Below are positions 4,675 through 38,925 of a DNA stretch of 64,000 bases, piece by piece. Source of the DNA: an uncultured Phascolarctobacterium sp. (GTDB lineage Bacteria; Bacillota; Negativicutes; Acidaminococcales; Acidaminococcaceae); the NCBI GenBank assembly GCA_947630795.1, contig CANRJC010000001.1, positions 62,001-126,000 on the forward strand, read 5' to 3'. The notes under the pieces were generated by a model. That model saw only the letters and a program-made list of their open reading frames with translations, was not told the DNA's origin and made no database searches. Position 1 is the stretch's first letter. Each line of letters starts with the position of its first letter. The position numbers and the translations under genes were made by a program.

Positions 4675-5868
4675 ATGCAAAAAGAAGCGTTGACCGGAAT
4701 AAGAGTGCTGGATATCTCCACCGTTATCGCCGGTCCCTGGGGCGCCGGCCTTTTGGCCGACTTCGGCGCCGAGGTCATCAAAGTGGAAATGCCCGGCCGG
4801 GGCGACACCTTCAGGGCCATGGGCCCCCTGAAGGACGGCGTGAGCATCCGCTGGCCGTCTATGGGCCGCAACAAAAAGACCATCACTCTGGACTTCCACT
4901 ATGAAGAAGGAAAGAAAATATTTTTGGACTTGGTGGCCAAAAGCGACGTGATCGTGGAAAATTTCCGCACCGGCACTTTGGATAAGTGGGGCTTGGGCAT
5001 CGATGTGCTGCGCAAAGCCAACCCCGATATCATCGTGGGCCATGTCACCGGCTACGGCCAGACCGGCCCCAATGCCAAACTGGCCGGCTTGGGCGCTGCC
5101 CTGCAGGCCTTCAGCGGCTACACCTACATGCAAGGTTATCCGGACCGGCCCCCCGTCAGCCCGCCCTTCCCCTTGGCCGATTATGTGGCCGGCCTCAATT
5201 TGGTGATCGGCATCATGATCAGCCTTTATCACAGAGACTGCCTGAAAGGCAAGGCTCAGGAAGTGGACGTGAGCCTTTACGAAGGTCTCTTCCGCATGAT
5301 GGAGGCCATGGTAGCGCAATACGATATTTTCGGCACCGTGCGGGAGCGGGCCCCCATGTCTACCGGCGGCAGTTGCCCCATCGGCACCTTCCTCACCAAA
5401 GACGAACGCTTCGTGATCATCGTGTGCAGTACTAACCCGGTGTTCGAGCATTTGTGCGATGCCATGGGCAAGAGGGAAGAGTGGCTGCCTAAATATGCCA
5501 AGACTCAGGATCGTTTGGCCGATCCCAAGCCCATCATGAGCGCCGTCAGTCAATGGTGCGCCGAGCACACCTTCGCCGAATTGAAGGAACGCTGCGATAA
5601 GGCCGGCTGCCCTATCTGCACCATTTACAGCATGAAAGACATTTTCGAAGATCCTCAATACGCCGCCCGTCACGACATCGTGGAAGTGCCCTGCAAAGAG
5701 TTCGGCACGGTGAAGATGCCGGGAGTGAGCCCGGTGCTCACTGAGACCCCCGGCCGCATCAAATGGGCCGGCCCGGCCATGGGCTCTTACAACGAAGAGA
5801 TCTACAAGGGCCTGCTGGGCTTGAAAGACGAAGAACTGGCAGAACTGAAAAACAAAAAAGTCATCTGA
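4675..5868 (+). CDS. Class III (CaiB/BaiF) CoA-transferase
   Basis: A 397-residue CoA-transferase of the formyl-CoA transferase / CaiB / BaiF fold, which moves CoA between carboxylic acids through an aspartyl-CoA intermediate. The expected nucleophile is present as Asp169 in FPLADYVAG, the same number as in formyl-CoA:oxalate transferase; the N-terminus (GIRVLDISTVIAGPWGAGLLADFGAEVIKVE) is typical but is only partly listed here. It heads a cluster with an amidohydrolase, two carriers and an HMG-CoA-lyase-like enzyme, so it probably activates an imported organic acid. The substrate cannot be read from the sequence. Confidence 0.9.
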   Translation: MQKEALTGIRVLDISTVIAGPWGAGLLADFGAEVIKVEMPGRGDTFRAMGPLKDGVSIRWPSMGRNKKTITLDFHYEEGKKIFLDLVAKSDVIVENFRTGTLDKWGLGIDVLRKANPDIIVGHVTGYGQTGPNAKLAGLGAALQAFSGYTYMQGYPDRPPVSPPFPLADYVAGLNLVIGIMISLYHRDCLKGKAQEVDVSLYEGLFRMMEAMVAQYDIFGTVRERAPMSTGGSCPIGTFLTKDERFVIIVCSTNPVFEHLCDAMGKREEWLPKYAKTQDRLADPKPIMSAVSQWCAEHTFAELKERCDKAGCPICTIYSMKDIFEDPQYAARHDIVEVPCKEFGTVKMPGVSPVLTETPGRIKWAGPAMGSYNEEIYKGLLGLKDEELAELKNKKVI

Positions 5869-5940
5869 GAAACGATGATGAGCGGCCCGGTCGCCTTTGC
5901 GCCCGGGCTTGCGGCGGATATAAAGAGAGATGGAGAGAAT

Positions 5941-7074
5941 ATGAGCAAAGTTGATATTTTGATCCGCAACGGACGGGTGATAGATCCCTACAGAGGCGTG
6001 GACTGCATAGAGGATGTGGCTGTAAAGGACGGCCTCATCGTAGCGGCGGAGGGAGCGACTGCCGTTCAGACCGTAGATGCCGCCGGCTGCATCGTGACTC
6101 CCGGCCTCATCGATTATCACTGCCATTTGGGAGCCATGGTGACGGACCTGGGCCTGCACGGCGAGACCATGTGCTTTCCCACCGGCGTCACCACGGTGGT
6201 AGACCCGGGCACCACCGGCACCGCCAACTACGAAGCGTTTCGCAGTTTTACCGCTTGCAGCCGCCTGAGAGTGAAAGCCTTTCTCAACGTGTGCCCCACC
6301 GGCATGGTGACCACCGCCAGCCACGAGAACTACGACCCGGCCCTCTTTCAAAGAGGCAAGATATTGCGCTTTTTGAAAAAATATGCCGATCAGCTTTTGG
6401 GCCTGAAAGTGAGACAGAGCATAGAATTGGTGGGCGGCAGAGGCCTGGAGCCTTTGAAGGCGATGATCGACATCGCCGAAGAAGCCGGCTGCCGCGTGGC
6501 GGTGCATACCACGAACCCGCCGGTGAAGGTGGAAGAGATAGCCCGCCTGCTGCGGCCCGGCGACATCTACGTCCATGTGTACCAAGGCAAGGGCGAGAGC
6601 GTAGTGAGAGAGGGAAAAGTGGTGAGCGAATTGTTCGCCCATCAAAAGCGGGGCGTTATCTTCGATGCGGCCAACGGCACCAATCATTTCAATTTCGCCG
6701 TAGCTCGGCAGTGTTTGGCCGAAGGCCTGCTGCCGGACGTGATCAGCACCGATCTGACGGTGAAGTCGGCCTATCTGCCGCAAGTGGCCTTCTCGCTGCC
6801 CTTTGTGATGTCCAAATATTTGCTGCTGGGGCTGAGCCTGCCGCAGGTGATCGAACGCACCGTCACCACACCGGCTCGTCTGCTGGGCCAAGAGCGGGAG
6901 CTGGGCAGTTTGTGCTTGGGCACCTGCGCCGATATCGCCGTGCATCGCCTCATCAAGAAGCCGGTGCTCTTTAAAGATTCGGCCGGCGAGACCCTGTGCG
7001 GCGGCGAATTGTTGAAAACAGAAATGACCGTGAGAGACGGCGAGACCGTGTTCCGCCAGATCGATTTTCAATAA
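5941..7074 (+). CDS. Amidohydrolase/deacetylase-type metalloenzyme
   Basis: A 377-residue amidohydrolase-superfamily TIM-barrel enzyme resembling the COG3964 deacetylase-like group. Metal ligands are visible in order: HxH in DYHCHLG, a Lys in GLKVRQS that is likely carboxylated, His in VAVHTTN, His in IYVHVYQG and Asp in ISTDLT. The ATG at 5941 is preferred over 5875, since it has a GGAGAG RBS and gives the family's MSKVDILIRNGRVID start. It lies between the CoA-transferase and a carrier gene, so it probably hydrolyses an N-acyl, ester or cyclic form of the same substrate; this is inference. Confidence 0.82.
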   Translation: MSKVDILIRNGRVIDPYRGVDCIEDVAVKDGLIVAAEGATAVQTVDAAGCIVTPGLIDYHCHLGAMVTDLGLHGETMCFPTGVTTVVDPGTTGTANYEAFRSFTACSRLRVKAFLNVCPTGMVTTASHENYDPALFQRGKILRFLKKYADQLLGLKVRQSIELVGGRGLEPLKAMIDIAEEAGCRVAVHTTNPPVKVEEIARLLRPGDIYVHVYQGKGESVVREGKVVSELFAHQKRGVIFDAANGTNHFNFAVARQCLAEGLLPDVISTDLTVKSAYLPQVAFSLPFVMSKYLLLGLSLPQVIERTVTTPARLLGQERELGSLCLGTCADIAVHRLIKKPVLFKDSAGETLCGGELLKTEMTVRDGETVFRQIDFQ

Positions 7075-7091
7075 AGAAAGGAAAGAGAGCA

Positions 7092-8483
7092 ATGAGCGCC
7101 CGATCCATAGCGAAAAAATTCTCTCACATCCATGAATATCTGGTAGTTATAGCCATGCTGCTTTTGGCCTGCATCCTCACCTACGTCATCCCCGCCGGCA
7201 AATATGCCACCATGGTGAATGCGGCGGGAGCCAAGGTGGTGGACCCCAACGGCTTTTCCTTAATCCCCAACACGCCCATCAACCCGATCTACATGCTGAA
7301 CCTCATCTACAAAGGCTTCGTGAAGCAGGCCAGCTTGATCTTCACCATGTTCTTCATCGCCGGCGGCGTGCAGATGATCATCGACACCGATTCCGTTCAT
7401 GCTTTGATGCGGGTGCTGGTGACCCGCTTCACCCAAACTCCCCGTTTGGCCATCGTGGTGATGATGGTGGCCTTCGGCCTCATGAGCGTGCCCATCCAGA
7501 TGAACTACTTCATCCCCTTCAGCACCGTGGTGCTGATGCTGTGCCTGATGCTGGGCTATGACGCAGTGACGGCGGCAGCGGTTATCATCACCGCTTCTTC
7601 CTTCGGCTCCACCTGCGGCATGCTGAACATCAGCACCACCGCCATCGCCAACGAGATGGTGGGCCTGCCTCTTTATCACGGCATGGGCTTTAGGTGGATA
7701 GGCTTCGTGTGCATGATCGTCATCACTACCTGGGCCATCTGCCGTTATGCGGAGACGGTGCGGCGCGACCCCAGCAAAAGTTATTGCTACGGCATCAAAA
7801 ACGTCATCGAGCCGGGCGACCCCGCTACCCTGCCGGTGATGAGCGCAAGACACGTGGTGTGCCTAACGGTGCTGGCTTTAGGCGTAGTGGCCCTTATCAT
7901 CGGCTGCTCCAAATATAATTGGAGCTTTGAAGGCACCGCAGTGTGCTTCCTTTTGACGGGCATCATAGCTTCCGTCATCGGCCGGCGCAACGCCAACCAA
8001 ATGTGCGCCAGCTTCGTGGCCGGCGCCAAGCCCATCCTGGGCGCCTGCATCATGATAGGCATCGCCCGCTCTGTGGCCTTGGCCATGGACGCAGGCCACA
8101 TCCTCGACACCATCGTTTACTACATTTCCATGGTGCTGAATTATGCGCCGGCCATCATCCAAGGACCCATCATGTTCTGGGCCCACACCATCATCAACTT
8201 CTTCGTCACCAGCGGGTCCGGCCAAGCCAACGTCACCATGCCCATCTTCTTCCCGGTGGCTGATCTCATCGGGATGTCCAAAGAGACGGCAGTGCTGGCC
8301 TTGAACTACGGCGACGGCCTCTCCAACTACATCTATCCTCATTCTTCTTCCCTGATGGCCTTCCTCGCCGCCTGCGGCGTAGGCTACGGCACCTGGATGA
8401 AATTTATGGGCAGATTGTTCGGCCTGTGGTTCATTTTCGCCAATCTCTTCATGATGTTGGCTGTGATCGTAGGTTATTGCTGA
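7092..8483 (+). CDS. YfcC-family (DcuC/ArcD superfamily) membrane carrier
   Basis: A 463-residue polytopic inner-membrane carrier with about 11-12 hydrophobic segments and family motifs such as YVIPAGKYA near residue 33 and SGSGQANVTMPI near 380. YfcC proteins belong to the C4-dicarboxylate/arginine-ornithine carrier superfamily; specificities vary. The start at 7092 has a GGAAAGAGAG RBS and removes a charged, non-conserved extension. It begins 17 bases after the amidohydrolase stop, so the genes are an operon, and it probably imports the pathway substrate. Confidence 0.85.
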   Translation: MSARSIAKKFSHIHEYLVVIAMLLLACILTYVIPAGKYATMVNAAGAKVVDPNGFSLIPNTPINPIYMLNLIYKGFVKQASLIFTMFFIAGGVQMIIDTDSVHALMRVLVTRFTQTPRLAIVVMMVAFGLMSVPIQMNYFIPFSTVVLMLCLMLGYDAVTAAAVIITASSFGSTCGMLNISTTAIANEMVGLPLYHGMGFRWIGFVCMIVITTWAICRYAETVRRDPSKSYCYGIKNVIEPGDPATLPVMSARHVVCLTVLALGVVALIIGCSKYNWSFEGTAVCFLLTGIIASVIGRRNANQMCASFVAGAKPILGACIMIGIARSVALAMDAGHILDTIVYYISMVLNYAPAIIQGPIMFWAHTIINFFVTSGSGQANVTMPIFFPVADLIGMSKETAVLALNYGDGLSNYIYPHSSSLMAFLAACGVGYGTWMKFMGRLFGLWFIFANLFMMLAVIVGYC

Positions 8484-8508
8484 TAAAATAAAAAGGAGAA
8501 AGACAGCC

Positions 8509-9468
8509 ATGACTATGCAACTGGTAGAAAAGATCAGATTATGCGAAGTGGGCCCCAGAGACGGCCTGCAAAACGAAAGACGCTTCTTCAGCACCGCAGA
8601 AAAAACAGAATTGATCGACGCCATGGGAGAGGCGGGCTTCCCCGTGATCGAAGTGGGCAGTTTCGTCAGCCCCAAGGCCGTGCCTCAAATGGCCAACACC
8701 GACGAAGTTTTCAAAAGTTTGAAACGGGTGCCGGGGGTGGAATATCGGGCCCTCATCGCCAACGCCAAGGGCGTAGACAGAGCTGCAGCCTGCGGCTGCA
8801 CCAAGGTGAAGCTGAACGTGTCGGCCAGCGTGGCCCACAATTTGGCCAATTTGAACCGCACTCCCGCCGAGACCGTGGCCGGTTTCGCCGAGTGTGTGGC
8901 TAAGGCCGAGGCCGCCGGCATCGGCATCTCCGGCTCCATCTCCATGGCCTTCGGCTCCCCTTGGGACAGAGAGATACCCATCCGAGACGTAAAAGACATA
9001 GTGGAAGCCTATTTGGCCGTGGGCATCGGCGAGATCAGCCTCTCCGACGCTTCCGGCATGGCCTATCCCACTCAGGTCTACGATATGTGCTGCGAGATGA
9101 AACGCTGCTATCCTCAGGTGGCGTGGTGGCTGCACTTCCACAACACCCGGGGCTTGGGCATCGCCAACGTGCTGGCCGGCATGCAGGCGGGCTTCACACA
9201 ATTCGATGCCAGCTTCGCCGGTGTGGGGGGCTGCCCCTTCGTGCCCGGCGCCGCCGGCAACGTAGCCACCGAAGATCTGCTCCACATGTGCGACGAGATG
9301 GGCGTGGCCACCGGCATCGACCTCACCAAGGCCATGGCCATCAGCCGGCGAGTGGTGGAATTGGTGGGCCACAACACCGACAGCTATCTTTTGCGGGCAG
9401 GCACCTCCAAGGCCCTGTTCAGAGAATTGCCCAAGGGGCAGATCAAAAATCAAACTTTGAAGAAATAA
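8509..9468 (+). CDS. HMG-CoA-lyase-like enzyme
   Basis: A 319-residue member of the HMGL/DRE-TIM family, which cleaves 3-hydroxy-3-methylglutaryl-CoA to acetyl-CoA and acetoacetate. Catalytic features are present: Arg17-Asp18 in GPRDGLQNE, the metal-binding HFHNTRG and the Cys of the mobile loop in VGGCPFVPGAAGNVATED. The closeness to true HMG-CoA lyase (mvaB/hmgL) is strong, but related lyases act on other 3-hydroxyacyl-CoAs such as citramalyl-CoA. With the class III CoA-transferase in the same operon it would complete activation followed by cleavage to acetyl-CoA. Confidence 0.88.
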   Translation: MTMQLVEKIRLCEVGPRDGLQNERRFFSTAEKTELIDAMGEAGFPVIEVGSFVSPKAVPQMANTDEVFKSLKRVPGVEYRALIANAKGVDRAAACGCTKVKLNVSASVAHNLANLNRTPAETVAGFAECVAKAEAAGIGISGSISMAFGSPWDREIPIRDVKDIVEAYLAVGIGEISLSDASGMAYPTQVYDMCCEMKRCYPQVAWWLHFHNTRGLGIANVLAGMQAGFTQFDASFAGVGGCPFVPGAAGNVATEDLLHMCDEMGVATGIDLTKAMAISRRVVELVGHNTDSYLLRAGTSKALFRELPKGQIKNQTLKK

Positions 9469-9773
9469 AGAGGGATCTTGCCGGGCGGCTGTCCTGTGCA
9501 AAAAGCAGGTGGCCGCCCCGGGAAGCCCCCGCCGAAATAGCGGAAGAACGATAAGAAAAGTACGCGGCAAAAAAGCAGCAGCTCGAAAAGAAAAGTCCGC
9601 GATAAAAAAGCGGAAGACTCACAACGGAAAGACCGCGGCGAAAAGCGGCAGCTCGAAAAGAAAAGTCTGCGATAAAAAAGCGGGGGCTCAAAAAACTTCT
9701 GCCGTAAGAAAAGAGGAAGCACGAACAAAGTCTTCGCCGCAAAAGCAGAGACAAAAACAGGAGGATGAACGCC
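9469..9773. repeat. Intergenic purine-rich direct repeats
   Basis: The gap before the CitMHS gene is A/G-rich and low in complexity. A 35-base unit beginning CAGCTCGAAAAGAAAAGTC is present at 9579-9613 and again at 9649-9683 with one visible mismatch, a 70-base period. Its core GCTCGAAAAGAAAAG recurs in other intergenic regions of this window. No gene or clear terminator is visible. Confidence 0.75.
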
Positions 9774-11081
9774 ATGACAGCCCTGATAGGTTATTTGATG
9801 TTGTTTGCCATCATGTTCCTCTTGATGAGGAACAAGATGATGCCCATCGTTATCTTCGTCACCATTCCCGTCATAGCCGCATTGCTTTTGGGCAACGGCC
9901 CTGCCGCCATCGGCAAGATGGTGGACGCCGGTTTGGCCTCGGTGTGGAAGACTGCCGTCCTCTTCATTTTCTCTACTTCTTATTTCGGCATTATGAACGA
10001 TGCGGGGATGTTCGACCCCATCGTGGAAGGCCTGATCAAAAGAGCCAATAACAATGTAGTGCTGGTGACCGTCTTCAGCGGCATCGTAGGCATTTTGGCC
10101 CACATGGACGGCGCTACCGCCACCACCGTGCTGGTCACCATCCCGGCGATGCTGCCCCTCTACAAACGTTTGAAGATATCTCCCTACTCTCTGCTTTTGA
10201 TCACCGGCTGCGCCATGGGCGTGATGAACTTGGTGCCGTGGGGGGGCCCCATCGTGCGGGTGGCTGCGGTGCTGAACCGAGACGTGACGGAGCTGTGGCA
10301 CTATATGCTGCCCTTCCAGGGAGTGGCCTTGGTGTTCACTTTGCTGGTGGCCGCCGCCTGCGGCATAGCCGAAAAGCGCCGGGGCGCCGGACAGTTCACC
10401 GACGAAGAACTGCAGGCTCTGGCCTTGGGTGAGCAGGACGAAAAAGTGCTGGCCTTGAAGCGGCCCAAGCTCTTTCTTTTCAACATAGCTCTCACCGTTA
10501 TCTTGGTAGTGGCTCTCTGCCTGGCCGTTATGCCCACCCACGTGCTCTTCATGATCGCCTTCGGCATCGGCATCTGCGTGAATTACCCCGGCCTGAAAAC
10601 TCAGGCAGAGCGTTTTAAAGCCCACGCCAGCGAAGCTTTGAACATGTCGGCCACCTTATTGGCCGCCGCCGTCTTCATCGGCGTCATGCAAAAATCGGGC
10701 ATGCTGGATGCCATGGTGAAGGTGCTGCTGGCCGTCATTCCCGATGCCATGGGCCGCTACATGAACCTGATCGCCGGCTTCATCAGCGTGCCTGTGGGGG
10801 CGGTGCTGGGAGCAGACACTTTCTACTTCGGCGTCTTCCCCCTGCTGGGGGCCGCCGCCGCCAACTTCGGGGTGCCCCAATTGGACGTGGGCGTGGCCAT
10901 GCTCATCGGCAAGAACGTGGGCATGATCATTTCGCCTCTGCAGCCCACCACCTATTTGGCCTGCGGCCTGGCCGGCGTAGAGGTGGCCGCCCACATCAGA
11001 AAAAATTTCTTTTGGTGCTGGCTCATCAGCATCCTCCTCTGCATCGTGGCCGTCTGCATGGGCCTCATGACCATCCATTGA
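9774..11081 (+). CDS. CitMHS-family citrate/H+ (metal) symporter
   Basis: A 435-residue carrier with about 12 membrane segments. Motifs such as GILAHMDGATATTVLVT and GMIISPLQPTTYLACGL match the CitMHS family, which carries citrate or metal-citrate. The second ATG (9774) is preferred, because the AGGAGG at 9759-9764 abuts the first ATG but is correctly spaced for this one. It follows the HMGL-like gene on the same strand after a repeat-rich gap, and may supply a tricarboxylate or branched dicarboxylate to the same pathway. Confidence 0.88.
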   Translation: MTALIGYLMLFAIMFLLMRNKMMPIVIFVTIPVIAALLLGNGPAAIGKMVDAGLASVWKTAVLFIFSTSYFGIMNDAGMFDPIVEGLIKRANNNVVLVTVFSGIVGILAHMDGATATTVLVTIPAMLPLYKRLKISPYSLLLITGCAMGVMNLVPWGGPIVRVAAVLNRDVTELWHYMLPFQGVALVFTLLVAAACGIAEKRRGAGQFTDEELQALALGEQDEKVLALKRPKLFLFNIALTVILVVALCLAVMPTHVLFMIAFGIGICVNYPGLKTQAERFKAHASEALNMSATLLAAAVFIGVMQKSGMLDAMVKVLLAVIPDAMGRYMNLIAGFISVPVGAVLGADTFYFGVFPLLGAAAANFGVPQLDVGVAMLIGKNVGMIISPLQPTTYLACGLAGVEVAAHIRKNFFWCWLISILLCIVAVCMGLMTIH

Positions 11082-11115
11082 CCTGCTTCCTCCGCATCAT
11101 TCATCATATAAAAAA

Positions 11116-11144
11116 CTGCCGCCTGCTTCAGGGACGGGCGGCAG
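11116..11144 (-). terminator. Terminator for the minus-strand LysR gene
   Basis: Stem CTGCCGCC/GGCGGCAG. Read on the minus strand, the stem is followed by a run of six T, placing it just beyond the LysR stop at 11197. Confidence 0.75.
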
Positions 11145-11168
11145 CTGCGAGGATCTTTTTATGCATTT

Positions 11169-11198
11169 GCCTCTGTCTGAAGACAGGGGCGCTTTTTT
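11169..11198 (+). terminator. Terminator after the CitMHS carrier gene
   Basis: Near-perfect stem GCCTCTGTCT/AGACAGGGGC followed on the + strand by six T. It overlaps the stop codon of the convergent LysR gene. Confidence 0.85.
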
Positions 11199-12162
11199 AT
11201 TCGGGCAGAGGCAGGTCGTACTTGCCGTAGGCCCGGCATTGACGGCAGAGAAGATCGATCAAGGCCCGGGCCGGTCTGCCGAAGCTGCGGGCTTTGGCGT
11301 GGGCTATCACCACCGGGTTGGTCTCCGTGAGGCCCTTGATGGGGAAAACGTTGAGGATGCCGCCGCTTTCTTTGTTCAGCTTCAAAAGCTGGGGCAGATA
11401 CATGGTAAGGCAGAAGCTGGCGGCGTGATCCCGGGCGCTCATCATGTGATGAAGATCGGGATGAGAAGAAGTGTGGACGCAGTCCAATTCAACGCCCAGC
11501 TTGGCCAGATGGGCCTGCAGCATGCGGCTGGAATTGAATTCGGGCAGATTGAAGGCGAAAGGCACCTTGGTGAAGAGGCTCAGGTCGGCCCCTTGGACGA
11601 AAACTTTTTTGCAGGCGGGGAAGGTGTTGGGGAAGTAGCGGGCCAGCATGTTGTCGCTAATCACCAAATAGAGCCGCTCGTTCAAAACGGTGCGGTGATA
11701 GAGAGCGCTGCCGGGATTATAGTAGAGCCCCACCACCATCAGGTCCAGCTGATTGTTGAGGATCATATCCCGCAGATCCGGTGAGGAAGCGCTGAAGGTG
11801 AGCAGCCGCACATGAGGATAGGCCTTGCTGAAGGCGCTGATGACGTCGGGCATGAGGATGCGGAAGCGCCCTTCGGTGGTGCCCAGGCGCAGTTCGCCGT
11901 CTGCATTCTCCTGCAGGTCGCGGTATCGTTCTTCTAAATTCAGCTCTGCGGCCTCCACTTGGCGGAAAGTGTCCAACAACAGTTGGCCGGCGTGAGTGAG
12001 GGCGAAGACGGGCTTGCGCCGGCAGAGGGCGACGCCGCACTTTTTCTCCAAATTGGAGAGGTATTTGCTCAGGTTTTGGTGAGTGATGAAGAGCCGCTCG
12101 GCGGCGCGGGTGATATTTTTTTCTTCGCAGAGGACGAGAAAGTAGCGGTAGTTGGCAAACAT
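11197..12162 (-). CDS. LysR-family transcriptional regulator
   Basis: A 321-residue LysR regulator. The N-terminal winged helix-turn-helix reads YFLVLCEEKNITRAAERLF followed by HQNLSKYLSNLEKKCG; the rest is the periplasmic-binding-like effector domain. I start at 12162, where AGAAGG precedes ATG, rather than at the longer frame beginning 12264. It converges on the CitMHS gene instead of diverging from it, so control of the catabolic cluster is plausible but not shown by layout. The large gap upstream (12163-13279) has no divergent partner gene. Confidence 0.9.
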   Translation of the reverse strand: MFANYRYFLVLCEEKNITRAAERLFITHQNLSKYLSNLEKKCGVALCRRKPVFALTHAGQLLLDTFRQVEAAELNLEERYRDLQENADGELRLGTTEGRFRILMPDVISAFSKAYPHVRLLTFSASSPDLRDMILNNQLDLMVVGLYYNPGSALYHRTVLNERLYLVISDNMLARYFPNTFPACKKVFVQGADLSLFTKVPFAFNLPEFNSSRMLQAHLAKLGVELDCVHTSSHPDLHHMMSARDHAASFCLTMYLPQLLKLNKESGGILNVFPIKGLTETNPVVIAHAKARSFGRPARALIDLLCRQCRAYGKYDLPLPE

Positions 12163-23070: not shown

Positions 23071-23260
23071 ATTAGTCCCTGCGGTGTTCGTTACGGCACC
23101 CCATAGGTTTTGAGCCAACACACTGACCTAGGGAACCTGATGCTCCGGCGTCCAAAAACAGGCCTCACGCTTTTCAGTGGAAGTTTGCGCGCGCCGGGAA
23201 GGTACCCACCTGCACAAGCAGGTTCAAAACACGGGGAAGGACGGCATTGTGGGGTTTAAT
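23071..23260 (+). ncRNA. ssrS: 6S RNA
   Basis: 6S RNA binds the housekeeping RNA polymerase holoenzyme by mimicking an open promoter. The 5' end (ATTAGTCCCTGCGGTG) pairs with the 3' end (GGCATTGTGGGGTTTAAT) through a long stem using several G-U pairs. Internal landmarks match Firmicute 6S RNAs: GAGCCAACACACTGA, ACCTAGGGAACCT on the 5' side of the bubble, and ACCTGCACAAGCAGGTTCAA near the 3' side. I identify it from these motifs and pairing; a covariance-model search would settle the ends. Confidence 0.88.
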
Positions 23261-32718: not shown

Positions 32719-32746
32719 TTGCGGGGGGGTAATTATGTGATAGAAT
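32719..32746 (+). promoter_or_regulatory. G7-tract promoter P1 (peptide 1)
   Basis: TTGCGG, 16-base spacer, TAGAAT. Seven consecutive G (32723-32729) start in the last bases of the -35 box and run into the spacer. The same design is found at 33311 and 42572. Transcription from it gives a leader of about 260 bases before peptide 1. Confidence 0.7.
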
Positions 32747-32921
32747 ATAGACACAAAGCCCGTTGAGCGCGTGATCTTGCAGTAAGTATTCACGAGCAGC
32801 GGCAAGAGGAGAACGAAAGTTTCCTGTCGCGTAGAGCAGCACTTAGTGAAGTTATTTCTGTTTATTTGCACGTCCGAGCTGCAAGAAGGAAATCGCAGGA
32901 CAGCGGGGACGGCGACTTACA

Positions 32922-32973
32922 TCAAAGGTCCGTGCTTTGAAACAGGCGGAGTGTTGCGCCTATCGTTTCAAAG
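32922..32973 (+). promoter_or_regulatory. Alternative-hairpin element upstream of peptide 1
   Basis: Three segments: A TCAAAG (32922-32927), B CTTTGAAAC (32935-32943) and C GTTTCAAAG (32965-32973). B pairs with A (loop GTCCGTG) or with C, the latter extended by AGGCG/CGCCT and capped by GAGTGTTG. Peptide 2 has the same architecture with compensatory changes at 34200-34255. It may be an RNA attenuator-type switch or a DNA operator. Confidence 0.65.
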
Positions 32974-33012
32974 GAGTAAAGATAACAAGGTATAGAATAG
33001 GAGGGGCGGATC

Positions 33013-33132
33013 GTGGAAAACGAAAAAGAAAAGTATGAAAAACCGGAGATGGAGATCATCTATATCGAAGCCAACGATATCATCTTTGCCAGCGGCGGCG
33101 ATACAGCTGACGACGCGGCTGAATGTCCTTGA
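33013..33132 (+). CDS. Putative RiPP precursor peptide 1 (39 aa)
   Basis: A 39-residue peptide from GTG behind GGAGGGGCGGATC, the same 16 bases as before peptide 2. The leader KEKYEKPEMEII.IE.NDII then FASGGD is shared with peptide 2; the C-terminal part after Gly28-Gly29 is DTADDAAECP. The single Cys38 sits four residues after Asp34. Leader conservation, core variation, and a neighbouring PqqD-like chaperone and radical SAM/SPASM enzyme make a modified-peptide precursor the best reading. It has its own promoter and terminator. No product is known to me. Confidence 0.8.
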   Translation: MENEKEKYEKPEMEIIYIEANDIIFASGGDTADDAAECP

Positions 33133-33157
33133 AGAGCGAGAAATGAGAGTTTGCGTG

Positions 33158-33191
33158 AGGAGCAGGGAGCGACCCTGCTCCTTTGTCGTTT
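33158..33191 (+). terminator. Terminator after peptide 1
   Basis: Ten-base-pair stem AGGAGCAGGG/CCCTGCTCCT, 5-base loop, then TTGTCGTTTTT. The paralogous position after peptide 2 keeps the stem but not the T-run. Confidence 0.75.
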
Positions 33192-33491
33192 TTAACTCGA
33201 CCCCGCAAGCAGAAAAAAGCAGAGTAAAACAGATCACCGTTTCATTGTGGCAGTTTTTTTCGGGAAAAGGGCTGAGAGATTGAAGGATAAAAAATAAAAA
33301 TATAAAAAACTTGTGGGGGGGACAATTGTGTGCTAAAATGTAAACATAAAGCGCACACTGCTCAAAAGAAGAAAACATCCTTTTGTTTTAGGGCCCTGCG
33401 ATGGGAGCAGCTGACAAAGGTCTATGTTTTTACAGGCAGCAGAGGCACGCTCGTCTGTGTTGCTGTGAGCAAATAAAGTGAGGAGCATACT
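33192..33491. other. Gap with promoter P2 and leader of the RiPP operon
   Basis: An AT-rich stretch, promoter P2 (33311-33339), and then an approximately 150-base untranslated leader up to the pqqD-like gene. I found no third precursor peptide in it. Confidence 0.5.
33311..33339 (+). promoter_or_regulatory. G7-tract promoter P2 (pqqD-peptidase-peptide 2-rSAM-NTP operon)
   Basis: TTGTGG, 17-base spacer, TAAAAT preceded by TGC. Seven G at 33315-33321. Very similar to P1 (32719) and P3 (42572); the sequence after the -10 also resembles P1 (ACATAAAGC here, ACACAAAGC there). Confidence 0.72.
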
Positions 33492-33752
33492 ATGAAGTTG
33501 AAAGAATCCTTCGTCACCTATGCGGCCGACGGTCAGCATACTATGGTGGCAACGGAGGGCTTTTCCGGAATAGTGCGGAGCAACGGCACTGCCGCCTTTA
33601 TCATAGAAGCATTGAAGTCGCCCACTACTATAGAAGCCATCGTCGCAGCTATGGCAAAAAAATACGATGCACCGCAAGAAACGATCGCCGCAGATGTGGT
33701 CGAGATTATCGCCAAATTGCGCAGCATAGGCGCCATCGAGGAAGGCGATTGA
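33492..33752 (+). CDS. PqqD-like peptide chaperone (RiPP recognition element)
   Basis: An 86-residue protein of the PqqD fold, a small winged-helix domain that binds RiPP leader peptides and presents them to radical SAM enzymes. Family features are DGQHTMVATEGFSGIVRSNG at the start and EIIAKLRSIGAIEEG at the end. AGTGAGGAG precedes the ATG. It overlaps the next gene by 4 bases. The partner leaders are presumably the KEKYEKPEMEII peptides. Confidence 0.85.
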   Translation: MKLKESFVTYAADGQHTMVATEGFSGIVRSNGTAAFIIEALKSPTTIEAIVAAMAKKYDAPQETIAADVVEIIAKLRSIGAIEEGD

Positions 33753-34207
33753 ACCTTAGCTTTGAAGCAGTACTGGCTCGGGAAGGGCAGTTGGTGTACA
33801 CCTGCGTAGGAGCCAGTATGTTGCCTTTATTGCGGCAGCGGCGGGATCTGATCGTGATCGAGAAGCCGAGCAAACCTTTGCAACGCTATGATGTACCTCT
33901 TTATAGGCGGGCAGACGGAAAATATGTGTTGCACCGGATACTGGCGGTGCGAAAGGATGGGTATGTCCTTTGCGGCGACAACCAGTGGCGGCGGGAGCGC
34001 AGAGTTACCGACGAACAGGTGATAGGAGTGATGACCGCCGTCGTGCGAGATGGCGAGACCATCTTTGTGACCGATAAGCGCTATCGGCTCTATGTACATC
34101 TGTGGTGCGATCTCTTTTGGCTGCGGGCCGCTTTGTTGTGGTGCCTCAGCCTGCCCGGGCGCATCAAAAGGAAAATGCAGGGGAGCAAAGACAGCGACTC
34201 ATTTTAA
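33749..34207 (+). CDS. S24/S26-like small peptidase of the RiPP locus
   Basis: A 152-residue protein starting at TTG that overlaps the pqqD-like stop. The serine motif GASMLPLL (Ser23) followed by DLIVI and later YVLHRILAV (His62) and GDNQ resemble signal peptidase-type boxes. With His in the place of the bacterial Lys it is closer to the ER/SipW-type Ser-His arrangement. A hydrophobic C-terminal stretch (LWCDLFWLRAALLWCLSL) could anchor it to the membrane. A role in removing the leader of the two peptides is a reasonable inference, not shown. Confidence 0.72.
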   Translation: MNLSFEAVLAREGQLVYTCVGASMLPLLRQRRDLIVIEKPSKPLQRYDVPLYRRADGKYVLHRILAVRKDGYVLCGDNQWRRERRVTDEQVIGVMTAVVRDGETIFVTDKRYRLYVHLWCDLFWLRAALLWCLSLPGRIKRKMQGSKDSDSF

Positions 34208-34255
34208 AGGTCTGTGCTTTAAAATGGACAGGGTGTTGCGCTGTTCGTTTTAAAG
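34200..34255 (+). promoter_or_regulatory. Alternative-hairpin element upstream of peptide 2
   Basis: A CATTTTAAAG (34200-34209), B CTTTAAAATG (34217-34226), C from 34246 ending TTTTAAAG (34255). A-B form 10 pairs with loop GTCTGTG; B-C form an unbroken 15-bp stem with loop GGTGTTGCG. Segment A overlaps the peptidase stop codon. Compared with 32922-32973 the G-C pair changes to A-T in all three segments, keeping both pairings. Confidence 0.68.
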
Positions 34256-34293
34256 AATATAGATAATCGAAGAAAAAGCAGGAGGGGCGGATC

Positions 34294-34422
34294 GTGAAAA
34301 ATATCAAAGAAAAGTACGAAAAACCGGAGATGGAGATCATTTCTATCGAGGTAAACGATATCATCTTTGCCAGCGGCGGAGATCCGGGCGATGGCAGCGG
34401 TTGTGTGGGTGAGTGCCCTTGA
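34294..34422 (+). CDS. Putative RiPP precursor peptide 2 (42 aa)
   Basis: A 42-residue paralogue of peptide 1 from GTG with the identical GGAGGGGCGGATC RBS. Leader: MKNIKEKYEKPEMEIISIEV then NDIIFASGG; core: DPGDGSGCVGECP with Cys37 and Cys41. Asp33 lies four residues before Cys37, the same spacing as Asp34-Cys38 in peptide 1. It lies inside the operon between the peptidase and the radical SAM enzyme, so the enzyme and this substrate are co-expressed. Confidence 0.82.
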   Translation: MKNIKEKYEKPEMEIISIEVNDIIFASGGDPGDGSGCVGECP

Positions 34423-34447
34423 GGAGCGAGAAACGAGCGTTCGCCTG

Positions 34448-34476
34448 AGGAGCGGGGGGAGTATCCTCGCTCCTTT
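34448..34476 (+). promoter_or_regulatory. Read-through hairpin (attenuator-like) after peptide 2
   Basis: Stem AGGAGCGGGG/CCTCGCTCCT (one G-U pair) homologous to the terminator after peptide 1, but followed by TTGTCGTTGAG instead of a T-run. It should stabilise or partly terminate the peptide mRNA while letting polymerase reach the radical SAM gene. Confidence 0.55.
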
Positions 34477-34517
34477 GTCGTTGAGACGGAAAATATTTGA
34501 AGGGAGGAAGAGAAGAT

Positions 34518-35891
34518 ATGCGGCAACTGACCGAGCCTTACAAAATGGCCGAAAAAATTTTGGGGAAGCAGGAGACGGACGGATGCGATCTGTGGAGACT
34601 TACCACTCACTGCTTGCAGTCGGAAGAGGAAGAGGGAGTTCTGTTTTATAATTCTTTGACCGGCGAACTGTTGCTGTTGACTCGTGAGGAAGCGGCCATG
34701 CTGAAGGAATTACCGGGGCCTTTGCCGGAGGGAACGAAATATTTGGCTGAGCGGTGGTTTTTGCGGCCGCTGCAGGGGGATGATATGGCCTTGGCGATCC
34801 ACCTGCGGGAGATCGTGAAACAGTTGGCAAAACGTGCGGCACAAAAAAGATCGGCACTGACGAAGTATTTGATATTCACTACCACGGCCTGCAATGCCCG
34901 TTGCTTTTATTGTTTCGAAGCCGGGATGAAAAAACTTTCCATGACAGAAGAGACCGCAAGGGCGGCGGGGGACTACATCGCAGCTCATTGCGGCGGCAAG
35001 CAGGTGCAGTTGCGGTGGTTCGGAGGCGAGCCGACTTTGAACACGCGGGCCATAGACATCATCACTGCCCGCCTGCGTCAGAAAAATGTGAGATTCGCTT
35101 CTACGATGGTGAGTAACGGCTATTTGTTGGATGCCGCCTTGGCCCGAAGAGCCAAGGAGGAATGGAACATGGAGTGGGTGCAGATTACCCTCGACGGCAC
35201 AGAAGAGATCTACAATCAACGAAAAGCTTATGTGAGCGTTCAGGGCAGTCCCTTCCGCAAAGTGCTGGATAATATCGACTTATTGTTGGCGTCCGACGTC
35301 GAAGTTTGTGTGCGTTTGAATATGGACGAAGAAAACGAGCGAGATCTTTATGCGCTGTGCGATCAACTGGAAGAGCGATTCGGAGGAAAGCAGGGTTTCG
35401 GTATCTACGTGCGGGCCATCATCGACGATGCTCAGACGAGAAGGAGCGGTCGCATAGAAGAAACTCAGCAGGCTCTTGTGAGGAAGGTGCAGGCTCTGGT
35501 CGATCACATCCGACGCAAAGGCTTAGGGGTGAAAGAGAGACTCGGAAGCGGAGTAGTTACCCATTCGTGCAGGGCCGATAACGACAGCGAAGCCACCATC
35601 GCTCCCGACGGTGGACTGGGTAGCTGCGAATGCAAGATCGAAGATGGTATCTGGGGCAGCGTCTTTTCCGAAGAGAGAAACGAAGAAGTTTTGCAAAAAT
35701 GGAAGGAGCAAAGACCTACTGAAGAAATATGCAAAACTTGTTGGCTCTTCCCCCGCTGCGTTCGCTTAAAAAAGTGTTGGGTGCATTTGGAGCAGTGCTT
35801 GCCTACCGAACGATCGGATAGGGAGATCAAGACCAAACGCGGTATCCTAACGATTTATGACGATTGGAAAAGAAAACAGGCAGAGCAATGA
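34518..35891 (+). CDS. Radical SAM/SPASM peptide-maturation enzyme
   Basis: A 457-residue enzyme. Residues 1-110 form a leader-binding-like N-terminus; the radical SAM core has CNARCFYC (Cys125/129/132) and the glycine-rich FGGEPTLN; the C-terminal SPASM region has Cys351, 370, 372, 405, 408, 414, 420 and 427 for auxiliary iron-sulfur clusters. Such enzymes form thioether or C-C crosslinks in peptides. The ATG at 34518 has GGGAGG upstream; the longer frame from 34497 starts within the RBS. With two Cys-ending precursors and a PqqD-like protein nearby, crosslinking of those peptides is the likely job. Confidence 0.9.
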   Translation: MRQLTEPYKMAEKILGKQETDGCDLWRLTTHCLQSEEEEGVLFYNSLTGELLLLTREEAAMLKELPGPLPEGTKYLAERWFLRPLQGDDMALAIHLREIVKQLAKRAAQKRSALTKYLIFTTTACNARCFYCFEAGMKKLSMTEETARAAGDYIAAHCGGKQVQLRWFGGEPTLNTRAIDIITARLRQKNVRFASTMVSNGYLLDAALARRAKEEWNMEWVQITLDGTEEIYNQRKAYVSVQGSPFRKVLDNIDLLLASDVEVCVRLNMDEENERDLYALCDQLEERFGGKQGFGIYVRAIIDDAQTRRSGRIEETQQALVRKVQALVDHIRRKGLGVKERLGSGVVTHSCRADNDSEATIAPDGGLGSCECKIEDGIWGSVFSEERNEEVLQKWKEQRPTEEICKTCWLFPRCVRLKKCWVHLEQCLPTERSDREIKTKRGILTIYDDWKRKQAEQ

Positions 35892-37072
35892 GAGAAGAAG
35901 GCACAGGGGCCGCATACAAAAATTTATACGGTTTATTGGGGGCCTGGTGCAACGGCGTAAAGTGGGAAGAGAAAGAAGTGCCGGACTTCAGAGCACTCTT
36001 TTATGTTGCGAAACGGCATAAATTGACAGCAGCTCTTTATTTGGCCTTGGAACAGGCGCAGCTTTTGGACAGCTGCCCTCCCGAACTCGCTGCCCGTATG
36101 AAGGAAGTAAAGCTGCTCGCAGAGCGGCGAGCGATACTGATGGATGCAGAGCGTCGGCATTTGTCGGACTTTATGGAAGAGAAGGGCATTTGGCATCTTC
36201 CTTTGAAAGGCATCATCCTTAAAAATTTTTGGCCTTTCTCCTCTGCGCGGGAGATGGCGGACAACGACATCCTCTTCGATTGTGAGGCTTGGAAGACAAT
36301 CCGTTCTTACATGAGGGGGCGGGGCTACTGGGAAGATCGGGATCCAATAGCGAAGGGGGCCCACGATACTTACATCAAGCCGCCCTGCTATCGTTTCGAG
36401 ATGCATCCATTTCTCTTTGCCAAATCTCAGGGTACCTTGGCCGTTTATTATGAAAATGTAAAGGAGCGGCTGCGGCCGGATCCGGGCAAAGTTTTTGCTT
36501 TTCGTTTCGGCGATGAAGATTTTTATGTATATTTTTTAGCTCACGCCTACAAACATTATCGGCGCGGCGGTATCGGGGTGCGCACTCTGCTGGATATTTA
36601 TCTCTATCGTCGCCAAAAGACGAATATGGATGAAACATATATCGCCGCCGAAGCGGCCAAGTTGGGGATCGGCAGCTTTGAACCTGTGTGCCGTTCTCTC
36701 GCTTGCAAATTATTTTCTTCACACACGCAAACTGCGGAATTGACGGAGGAGGAAGCCGATACTTTGGCCTATATGGAAGAAGCCGGCGCTTACGGCACTT
36801 TGGCCCAAAAAGCGGCAGCGAAGCTGAACGAATTGCGGGAAGAAGGAGAAAAGGTCGGAACACGATTGAAGCTGCGCTATGTTTTTCGCAGGCTCTTCCC
36901 GAAACAGGAGTGGTATCGGGCATATGTCCCTTTCGTATACCGCCATCGCTGGGCTCTGCCTTTTTATTGGCTGTATCGGTTGTTCAGAGGTGTCGTCCTC
37001 AACGGCGAGCGCAATCGAAAAATGTTGCGGGCCGTTTTGGCCGTCTCCGACAGATCCGGCATAAATAAGTGA
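35888..37072 (+). CDS. NTP_transf_5 family protein of the RiPP locus
   Basis: A 394-residue member of the nucleotidyltransferase-like family PF14907. The defining block runs from Pro105: PLKGIILKNFWPF, then Arg121 and DNDILFD (Asp126-Asp131). Similar proteins recur in lasso-peptide and other RiPP clusters, where their reaction is mostly unknown. The ATG at 35888 overlaps the radical SAM stop (ATGA); a TTG at 35864 is an alternative. A weak hairpin (37086-37104) follows. Confidence 0.8.
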   Translation: MREEGTGAAYKNLYGLLGAWCNGVKWEEKEVPDFRALFYVAKRHKLTAALYLALEQAQLLDSCPPELAARMKEVKLLAERRAILMDAERRHLSDFMEEKGIWHLPLKGIILKNFWPFSSAREMADNDILFDCEAWKTIRSYMRGRGYWEDRDPIAKGAHDTYIKPPCYRFEMHPFLFAKSQGTLAVYYENVKERLRPDPGKVFAFRFGDEDFYVYFLAHAYKHYRRGGIGVRTLLDIYLYRRQKTNMDETYIAAEAAKLGIGSFEPVCRSLACKLFSSHTQTAELTEEEADTLAYMEEAGAYGTLAQKAAAKLNELREEGEKVGTRLKLRYVFRRLFPKQEWYRAYVPFVYRHRWALPFYWLYRLFRGVVLNGERNRKMLRAVLAVSDRSGINK

Positions 37073-37215: not shown

Positions 37216-38925
37216 GTGTTCAAGACCATTTGCGCTTTGATCGGCAAAAAAAGAAAACGGCAGATGTTGACACGCCTGCCTGCTATGCTGTTGGCCTCTC
37301 TTTTGGAGATGGCGGGCTTGGCCCTTATCGCCTCGGTGTGTGCGGCTTTGGTCAGCGGAGCTTGGGCCAAGGAAAATTCCCCCATCATGGTGCTTTACAA
37401 CTATTTCGGCTTTCAGTCCAAGGGAGAGTTCATCACGGCTATCTTGTCGGTGATGATTGCTGTCTATGTGTTCAAACTGTTTTATCTCTCTTGGGAAAAT
37501 TACATGGCGGCCAAGTTCGTCCGCATTGTTCGAGGGGAGATGGCAACGGCTCTGTGTCGGCGCATAATCCGTAGTCCTTACGATTTTTATATCAAACACA
37601 GCACCGCTCAGATGCAAAATTTACTGGGGCAGGATACCCTGCAGTTTTCCGTAGGCTTGGATGCTTATATGCAGCTCTTTATGGAATTGCCTGTGGCTCT
37701 GGGCATGGTGGCCTGCCTTTTTTGGATCGATCCCATGATGACTGCCTTTGCCACCGGCGGCCTCGTAGTGCTGATGATCGTCATCCGCATCGTTTTAAAG
37801 CGGCCCATCAAAAGCGCCTCGCGACGGCAGCGAAAGTCCGGCAGGTCGCGGTGGAAGTGGCTCCACTATATAGCGGGTGGCGTTAAAGATATCAAGGTGG
37901 GCGGGCACGAGGACCTCTTTGAGAAAAAATTTGCCGAAGCCGAAGCCGATTTCGACCGCTCCGACTATTTGAGCCGCTTCTGGAATAAAATGCCCACGCT
38001 CTTCATCGAAAGCGTCATGGTGCTGTCGGTGCTGTTTTACATCCTCTACTTGAACCTCAGCGACAGAAACATGCTGCTCTATCTGCCGGGCCTTTCCGCC
38101 TTGGCTTGGACAGCGGTGCGCCTCTTGCCGGCCTGCAGCAGGATCAACAACAGCCTTACCCAAATAAGTTACAGCAGAGCATCCGTGGAAGCTGTGGCCG
38201 CTGTCTTTAAAGAGACAGCGGAGGCCGAGCTGGTCATCGATGAAAAAGCAGCATCGGTAAGCGATGGCATCGAGTTGCGTGATCTCACCTTTACTTATGA
38301 AGGAAAGAACGAAGCAGTGTTAAAAGATGTGAGCATGAAGATACCCGCAGGCTCCGCTGTGGGGCTGGTGGGCCTTTCCGGAGCGGGAAAGACCACGCTG
38401 CTGGACATCATGCTGGGCCTTTTGCATCCGCAACATGGGGAAGTGTTGATCGGCGGTGTCCCCATCGACGAGTGCCGTAGAAATTTTTGGCGGCAAACAG
38501 CTTATGTGCCCCAAAATACTTTTCTTTTGAACGATACGGTGCGCAGCAATGTGGCCATGGGCGTTCCTTCCGAAGAGATAGACGATGAGCGGGTGTGGGG
38601 GGCACTGAAAAAAGCGGCTTTAGCCGAGGCCGTCGGCCACCTGCCCGGAGGGCTGGATACGCAAGTGGGCGAGCGGGGCCTTCGTCTCTCCGGCGGTGAG
38701 CGTCAGCGGCTGGGGATAGCACGAGCCCTGTATCGAGATTGCCCCGTACTGGTCTTCGATGAGCCCACTTCCGCTTTAGATGCCCAAACGGAAGCGGAGG
38801 TAGTGAAAGTCATCGGCAATCTAAAAGGAGAGAGGACGCTCATCCTCGTTTCTCACAGCGAGGCGGCCGTTTCTGTTTGCGACCGCATCTATCGGCTCAG
38901 CAGTGGCAGAGCTCAACTGCAATGA
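37216..38925 (+). CDS. ABC exporter (fused membrane and ATPase domains) of the RiPP locus
   Basis: A 569-residue half-transporter: membrane domain (residues about 15-310, six predicted helices) and ATPase domain with Walker A GLSGAGKTT, signature LSGGERQR and Walker B VLVFDEPTSALD. It has no N-terminal C39 peptidase, so leader removal must be done by another protein, possibly the S24/S26-like one. The GTG start follows a G-rich RBS. Export of the mature peptide is inferred from position. Confidence 0.88.
   Translation: MFKTICALIGKKRKRQMLTRLPAMLLASLLEMAGLALIASVCAALVSGAWAKENSPIMVLYNYFGFQSKGEFITAILSVMIAVYVFKLFYLSWENYMAAKFVRIVRGEMATALCRRIIRSPYDFYIKHSTAQMQNLLGQDTLQFSVGLDAYMQLFMELPVALGMVACLFWIDPMMTAFATGGLVVLMIVIRIVLKRPIKSASRRQRKSGRSRWKWLHYIAGGVKDIKVGGHEDLFEKKFAEAEADFDRSDYLSRFWNKMPTLFIESVMVLSVLFYILYLNLSDRNMLLYLPGLSALAWTAVRLLPACSRINNSLTQISYSRASVEAVAAVFKETAEAELVIDEKAASVSDGIELRDLTFTYEGKNEAVLKDVSMKIPAGSAVGLVGLSGAGKTTLLDIMLGLLHPQHGEVLIGGVPIDECRRNFWRQTAYVPQNTFLLNDTVRSNVAMGVPSEEIDDERVWGALKKAALAEAVGHLPGGLDTQVGERGLRLSGGERQRLGIARALYRDCPVLVFDEPTSALDAQTEAEVVKVIGNLKGERTLILVSHSEAAVSVCDRIYRLSSGRAQLQ

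Follow-up and report, generated by a model that had tools for sequence, protein, structure and literature searches.

The window, by which we mean the whole 64,000-nucleotide stretch of DNA that was analysed, belongs to a genome of 1.9 Mb in 51 contigs. It contains a RiPP cluster with two precursor genes, genes for a PqqD-like and an S26-like protein, a radical SAM maturase, a PF14907 nucleotidyltransferase and an ABC exporter; radical-SAM peptide clusters are common in gut bacteria. The copies of the element described here lie inside this cluster, whose genes and neighbouring signals are as follows:

32719..32746, + strand: promoter-like sequence P1 (TTGCGG, 16 nt, TAGAAT), about 155-180 nt 5' of element copy 1
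33013..33132, + strand: precursor peptide 1 (39 aa, GTG start, ending ...DIIFASGGDTADDAAECP)
33157..33193, + strand: terminator-like hairpin 3' of precursor 1 (terminator scan)
33311..33339, + strand: promoter-like sequence P2 (TTGTGG, 17 nt, TAAAAT), resembling P1 at the G-run and the -10
33492..33752, + strand: PqqD-like RiPP recognition protein (PF05402, 2.7e-16)
33749..34207, + strand: S26/signal-peptidase-like protein (TIGR02228 below cut-off; 69% identical to its homologue at L012, a locus of an Oscillospiraceae MAG)
34294..34422, + strand: precursor peptide 2 (42 aa)
34518..35891, + strand: radical SAM peptide maturase (PF04055, 1.6e-13; nearest NCBIfam TIGR04463, below cut-off)
35885..37072, + strand: nucleotidyltransferase-like protein (PF14907, 1.1e-35)
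37216..38925, + strand: ABC exporter (PF00005, PF00664)

Neither precursor matched a Pfam or NCBIfam family, and a domain search of the cluster's proteins found no regulator gene within it. P1 lies 5' of precursor 1 and of element copy 1, and P2 lies 5' of pqqD and of copy 3; both were called by reading and aligning the sequence and are absent from the strict consensus promoter scan. In both, a run of seven G overlaps the -35, and TGTG precedes the -10. A terminator-like hairpin is also found 3' of precursor 2 (34440-34482); it is weaker than that of precursor 1 and could allow partial read-through into the maturase gene. Elsewhere in the window, at 23073-23259, is a 6S RNA (Rfam RF00013, 86.5 bits).

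Copies of the element and their distribution

The preliminary description had placed a duplicated element upstream of each precursor gene. Copies 1 and 2 are indeed found there, but a third copy precedes pqqD, and the element is therefore not confined to precursor genes. All three copies lie roughly 23-40 nt upstream of a start codon. Their parts, including the segments A, B and C and the short helix S1 that are discussed below, are:

32901..32983, + strand: element copy 1, leader of precursor 1 (repeat search; covariance models R1 and R2)
32909..32912, + strand: copy 1 S1 5' strand ACGG, which pairs with the loop at 32930-32933 (CCGT)
32922..32927, + strand: copy 1 segment A (TCAAAG; pairing analysis)
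32935..32948, + strand: copy 1 segment B (CTTTGAAAC + AGGCG; pairing analysis)
32957..32973, + strand: copy 1 segment C (CGCCT-ATC-GTTTCAAAG; pairing analysis)
33393..33468, + strand: element copy 3, before pqqD (core match, hairpin, model R2)
33401-33404 with 33422-33425, + strand: copy 3 S1 (pairing analysis)
33411-33419 with 33427-33435, + strand: copy 3 A:B, interrupted (pairing analysis)
33416-33430, + strand: copy 3 core AAAGGTCTATGTTTT (core pattern search)
33430-33468, + strand: copy 3 B:C hairpin (folding)
34183..34265, + strand: element copy 2, between the S26-like gene and precursor 2 (repeat search; models R1 and R2)
34200..34209, + strand: copy 2 segment A (CATTTTAAAG), holding the S26-like stop codon (34205-34207)
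34217..34231, + strand: copy 2 segment B (CTTTAAAAT + GGACAG; pairing analysis)
34241..34255, + strand: copy 2 segment C (CTGTTC + GTTTTAAAG; pairing analysis)

The core pattern AAAGGTCYRTGYTTT has three sites in the window and no other exact site in the genome; when one mismatch is allowed, the forward count in this genome exceeds the control, and the full core is matched by the three copies only. The pattern was widened to admit copy 3, and the fair measure of that copy is its identity with copy 2 (13 of 15 core positions) together with its spacing, the distance from the upstream GAYRG being equal in the two. Copy 3 was missed by model R1, which was made from copies 1 and 2; the match of R2 to copy 3 is by construction because R2 was built with that copy.

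Copies 1 and 2 sit within a longer duplication, which starts at the end of the S26-like gene and takes in the precursor together with its terminator-like hairpin. Positions 32886-32973 and 34168-34255 share 74% identity without gaps, and 17 of the 21 differences between the copies (over 75 ungapped positions) are transitions. The duplication appears to have gone from copy 2 to copy 1, with copy 2 as the likely source, because the sequence that precedes copy 1 is similar to the last part of the S26 gene. At L012 the S26 stop codon likewise overlaps the upstream arm of a hairpin, GCCTG-AAAG-CAGGC.

The nearest relative, and the sole close one among the genomes compared, is a rabbit-gut MAG named Phascolarctobacterium (G001, locus L011). 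The element was found in this genus only, with three copies in each of two genomes, all in one radical-SAM peptide cluster. Rfam gave no match over the element region at the gathering score, and when E was relaxed to 10 its sole match was a chance microRNA. The searches with models R1 and R2 covered the other 59 relatives, 379 members of the class and 300 of the L012 family; no copy turned up, and the matches there were at chance level. The searches across more than 40 genomes used strict filters, by which weak copies could be lost. Those R2 matches beyond the genus that were inspected lay in or beside unrelated genes, were plain palindromes or lacked the rest of the element, and an R1 match at 6346 fell inside a gene. 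Among 61 genomes, the core pattern had three matches outside this cluster, all coding and without the rest of the element, which we ascribe to chance. A pattern containing S1 was absent from viral contigs, the element DNA from plasmids and phages, and the maturase from plasmids. The regions upstream of precursors in four distant clusters (L056, L058, L060 and L061) contain hairpins, none of them alike. The preliminary description had looked to a covariance model search of relatives for covariation; that test covered copy 3 and the sister alleles, the three paralogues and these alleles lend some support to a structure kept by covariation, and the search brought no further homologues.

A stable hairpin and a competing upstream pairing

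Segment B had been described as able to pair either with the upstream segment A or with the downstream segment C, and both pairings are present in copies 1 and 2. The B:C hairpin comprises 14 pairs in copy 1 (9 + 5) and 15 continuous pairs in copy 2, with nearest-neighbour energies of -16.6 and -18.7 kcal/mol and z-scores, against hairpin-only shuffles, of -4.2 and -8.0, respectively. It lies just upstream of the ribosome-binding site, which is itself outside B and C. When the 21 substitutions seen between the copies were placed at random on copy 1, the B:C stability of copy 2 was equalled in 1 of 5000 trials (0.02%), an A:B pairing as stable as that of copy 2 arose in 1.1%, and the two were never reached jointly (5000 trials). 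By this test, B:C is under selection, since its stability is so rarely met by random substitution. Copy 3 has a different B:C hairpin of equal stability (-18.0 kcal/mol, z -2.8). The sister copies show three point differences, of which two fall in unpaired bases and one converts a G-C pair to G-U.

The pattern of change between copies 1 and 2 agrees in most respects with the preliminary description. That C-G-C gives way to T-A-T jointly, at homologous positions in all three segments, is confirmed, and one further pair changes from C-G to a T-G wobble; the loops GTC(C/T)GTG and GTGTTG are conserved between the two copies. The reported compensation in the inner stem (AGGCG/CGCCT to GGACAG/CTGTTC), in contrast, does not hold position by position. 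Counted from 32901 and 34183, columns 44-48 pair with 57-61 in copy 1 and columns 44-49 with 59-64 in copy 2, and the stem of copy 1 has a three-base bulge that copy 2 lacks. Since different columns are paired, the inner helix has been rebuilt in another register. B:C is the firmest part of the element and, judged from a small set of sequences (three paralogues and near-identical orthologues, which furnish all the sequence evidence), a real and conserved RNA hairpin of the sense strand.

The competing A:B pairing joins 32922-32927 to 32935-32940 in copy 1 (6 bp) and 34200-34209 to 34217-34226 in copy 2 (10 bp), where it is a perfect dyad; in copy 3 it has 7 pairs, interrupted by two mismatches. 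Its energies of -4.9 (copy 1) and -7.3 kcal/mol (copy 2) are 11-12 kcal/mol weaker than those of B:C, so that B:C wins in both copies unless a stabiliser intervenes. The z-scores, again from hairpin-only shuffles, are -1.9 and -5.2. With B and C held fixed, the observed A:B was reached in 0.075% of randomisations that started from copy 1 and aimed at copy 2, but in 34% of those in the opposite direction; the support for A:B is one-sided, and is weaker evidence than that for B:C.

The loop enclosed by A:B can in turn pair with the upstream strand of S1 (ACGG/CCGT, ACAG/CTGT and ATGG/CTAT), and A:B would therefore be part of a pseudoknot. This 4-bp helix is kept in all five sequences; two of its pairs are doubly changed, and the two variable loop bases covary with S1. 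The covariation score of S1 and A:B together is 0.369, against a shuffled mean of 0.198 (0/500), and is at most 0.108 when the helix is slid. S1 was first picked out by eye, after inspection, and a helix equal to or better than it occurs in 5% of column permutations, so S1 is suggestive only. A:B and S1 may thus form an H-type pseudoknot that excludes B:C, a possibility that the sequences suggest. Another helix, AGCR.RGAC/GTCY.GTGCT (AGCG.GGAC/GTCC.GTGCT), is good and competing in copies 1 and 2 and is broken in copy 3.

A plain stabilising stem-loop, with no switching, remains the main rival to this picture, and is a real possibility though not the probable one. B:C would then be a 5' stabiliser, a processing site or a spacer that raises or evens out the mRNA of the genes 3' of it, and A:B would be a by-product of the likeness between A and C. 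No other fold comes close to B:C in stability or conservation, each precursor is preceded by a hairpin and followed by a terminator-like one, and at L012 a strong hairpin of unrelated sequence (-18.8 kcal/mol) separates the S26-like gene from the first precursor, all of which fits a constitutive role. Such a role leaves unexplained that conservation extends to the loop GTCYRTG and to the S1 strand, which stand outside B:C, that the A:B dyad of copy 2 is perfect over 10 bp, and that A covaries with both B and C. Known 5' stabilising or processing stem-loops of polycistronic mRNAs resemble the element in being strong stem-loops 5' of a ribosome site in operons whose parts are needed unequally, but the conserved loop, the upstream partner and the alternative pairing would be superfluous for that function.

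RNA structure or DNA signal

The preliminary description had allowed for a DNA operator at the same place, since TTGCGC is followed 16-17 nt later by TAWAGATAA in copies 1 and 2, which would also fit a promoter. In favour of such a reading, the three segments repeat a single motif, which a regulator might bind as inverted repeats. The folding energies of the two strands bear directly on this reading. B:C has energies (sense/antisense, kcal/mol) of -16.6/-15.1 in copy 1, -18.7/-6.8 in copy 2, -18.0/-6.7 in copy 3 and -15.4/-3.2 and -16.7/-5.1 in the sister alleles. Copy 1 is near strand-symmetric, whereas in copies 2 and 3 and the sister alleles the hairpin is strong on the sense strand only, because several of its pairs are G-U. 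An operator requires equal symmetry on both strands, which is nearly present in copy 1 and absent from the others; an RNA does not, and the sense-only stability therefore points to RNA.

The promoter variant is also disfavoured. A sigma-70 promoter should have near-consensus hexamers 16-18 nt apart that are kept in relatives, and TTGCGC/TAWAGATAA does not: the consensus scan did not report TTGCGC...TA(A/T)AGAT, copy 3 lacks the pair altogether, and copy 2 of the sister genome has lost 7 nt (gttttaaagaatatagataa to gttttatagataa), a deletion that destroys the spacing while B:C persists at -15.4 kcal/mol. As the cluster also lacks a regulator gene, we regard a DNA signal as improbable.

Still less credible is a functional leader peptide or short upstream reading frame (KG(P/L)CF, or GTG CTT TGA / GTG CTT TAA or ATG TTT... 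in another frame) with incidental pairing: the loop of copies 1 and 2 does contain GTG-CTT-stop and copy 3 an ATG with an upstream AGGG, but no start is common to a frame in all three, that of copy 2 runs across part of the S26-like gene in a different reading frame, and copies 1 and 2 have no fitting ribosome site. The ATG of copy 3 opens a 26-codon frame, MGAADKGLCFYRQQRHARLCCCEQIK (33393-33494), which starts within S1, ends at the pqqD ribosome site and could encode a leader peptide.

Possible control of the cluster's genes

That the element is a cis-acting RNA is well supported by its sequence. Of the earlier proposal of an RNA that switches structure, the first half is supported by the sense-strand hairpin, by a structure that survives substitutions and by the promoter-like P1 and P2 upstream of copies 1 and 3; the switching is plausible only, and that the element is a switch is a reasonable hypothesis for which the evidence is partial. 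Since the fold is kept while the letters have changed, and stands 5' of genes of the cluster, it probably helps to control those genes. The explanation we prefer, and consider moderately likely, is a cis-acting structured RNA, present three times in the leader and intergenic regions of one radical-SAM peptide cluster, with a proposed switch as a part of it.

On the sense strand, B and C form the stable hairpin just 5' of the ribosome-binding site. Before C is transcribed, B could form a helix with A that encloses the loop GUC(C/U)(G/A)UG, the middle of which may pair with the upstream strand of S1 to give an H-type pseudoknot that excludes B:C. If the pseudoknot persists, C would be free to pair with the ribosome-binding site and translation would be lowered; if C displaces A, B:C would form and the site would be open. 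In copies 1 and 2 A:B is the weaker pairing, so that the closed state would depend on a stabiliser or be co-transcriptional only. Candidates for what might hold the pseudoknot are a ligand, a protein, the peptide product, the transit of a ribosome or folding kinetics alone.

Constrained folds suggest which state is which. In copy 1, the openness of the Shine-Dalgarno sequence is 0.80 with B:C allowed versus 0.43 with A:B imposed and 0.32 with B single-stranded, because the freed downstream region pairs with the Shine-Dalgarno bases. The corresponding values for copy 2 (0.57 versus 0.41 and 0.48) form a weak trend, and in copy 3, where the free fold masks the site, the effect is not clear. These folds suggest that the site may be open when B:C forms and closed in the A:B pseudoknot.

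The element shares with transcription attenuators and terminator-antiterminator switches a set of three segments in which B can pair with A or C in mutually exclusive fashion. It differs from them in that C is not followed by a U-tract in any copy and the terminator scan has no entry at this place; the element is therefore not a terminator switch. Another architectural parallel might be drawn with preQ1-I, preQ1-II and SAM-II, which are riboswitches built on an H-type pseudoknot. Like these, the element could form a small pseudoknot 5' of a ribosome-binding site, with a 3' strand shared with a downstream helix; unlike them, it has no Rfam match or phylogenetic spread, its S1 has only 4 bp, and metabolic genes do not adjoin it. 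It is doubtful that the element is a small, riboswitch-like pseudoknot RNA that senses the product of the cluster or a related signal and thereby sets the translation of the precursors and pqqD.

A limited literature search found no described RNA-level control of radical-SAM peptide clusters and no matching element. A compact element before each transcribed part of one cluster would show how the output of precursors and enzymes is balanced; the candidate is small and lineage-restricted, and its weight is therefore moderate.

The Oscillospiraceae MAG that contains L012 (G380) is also from rabbit, and its locus (4890-11650) is a near-complete relative of the peptide cluster, with identities of 70% for PqqD, 69% for S26 and 55% for the maturase. 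L012 contains two tandem maturases, and a third lies elsewhere in that genome (L056), beside a serine-resolvase-like gene. The occurrence of related clusters in the two genomes suggests transfer between distant lineages.
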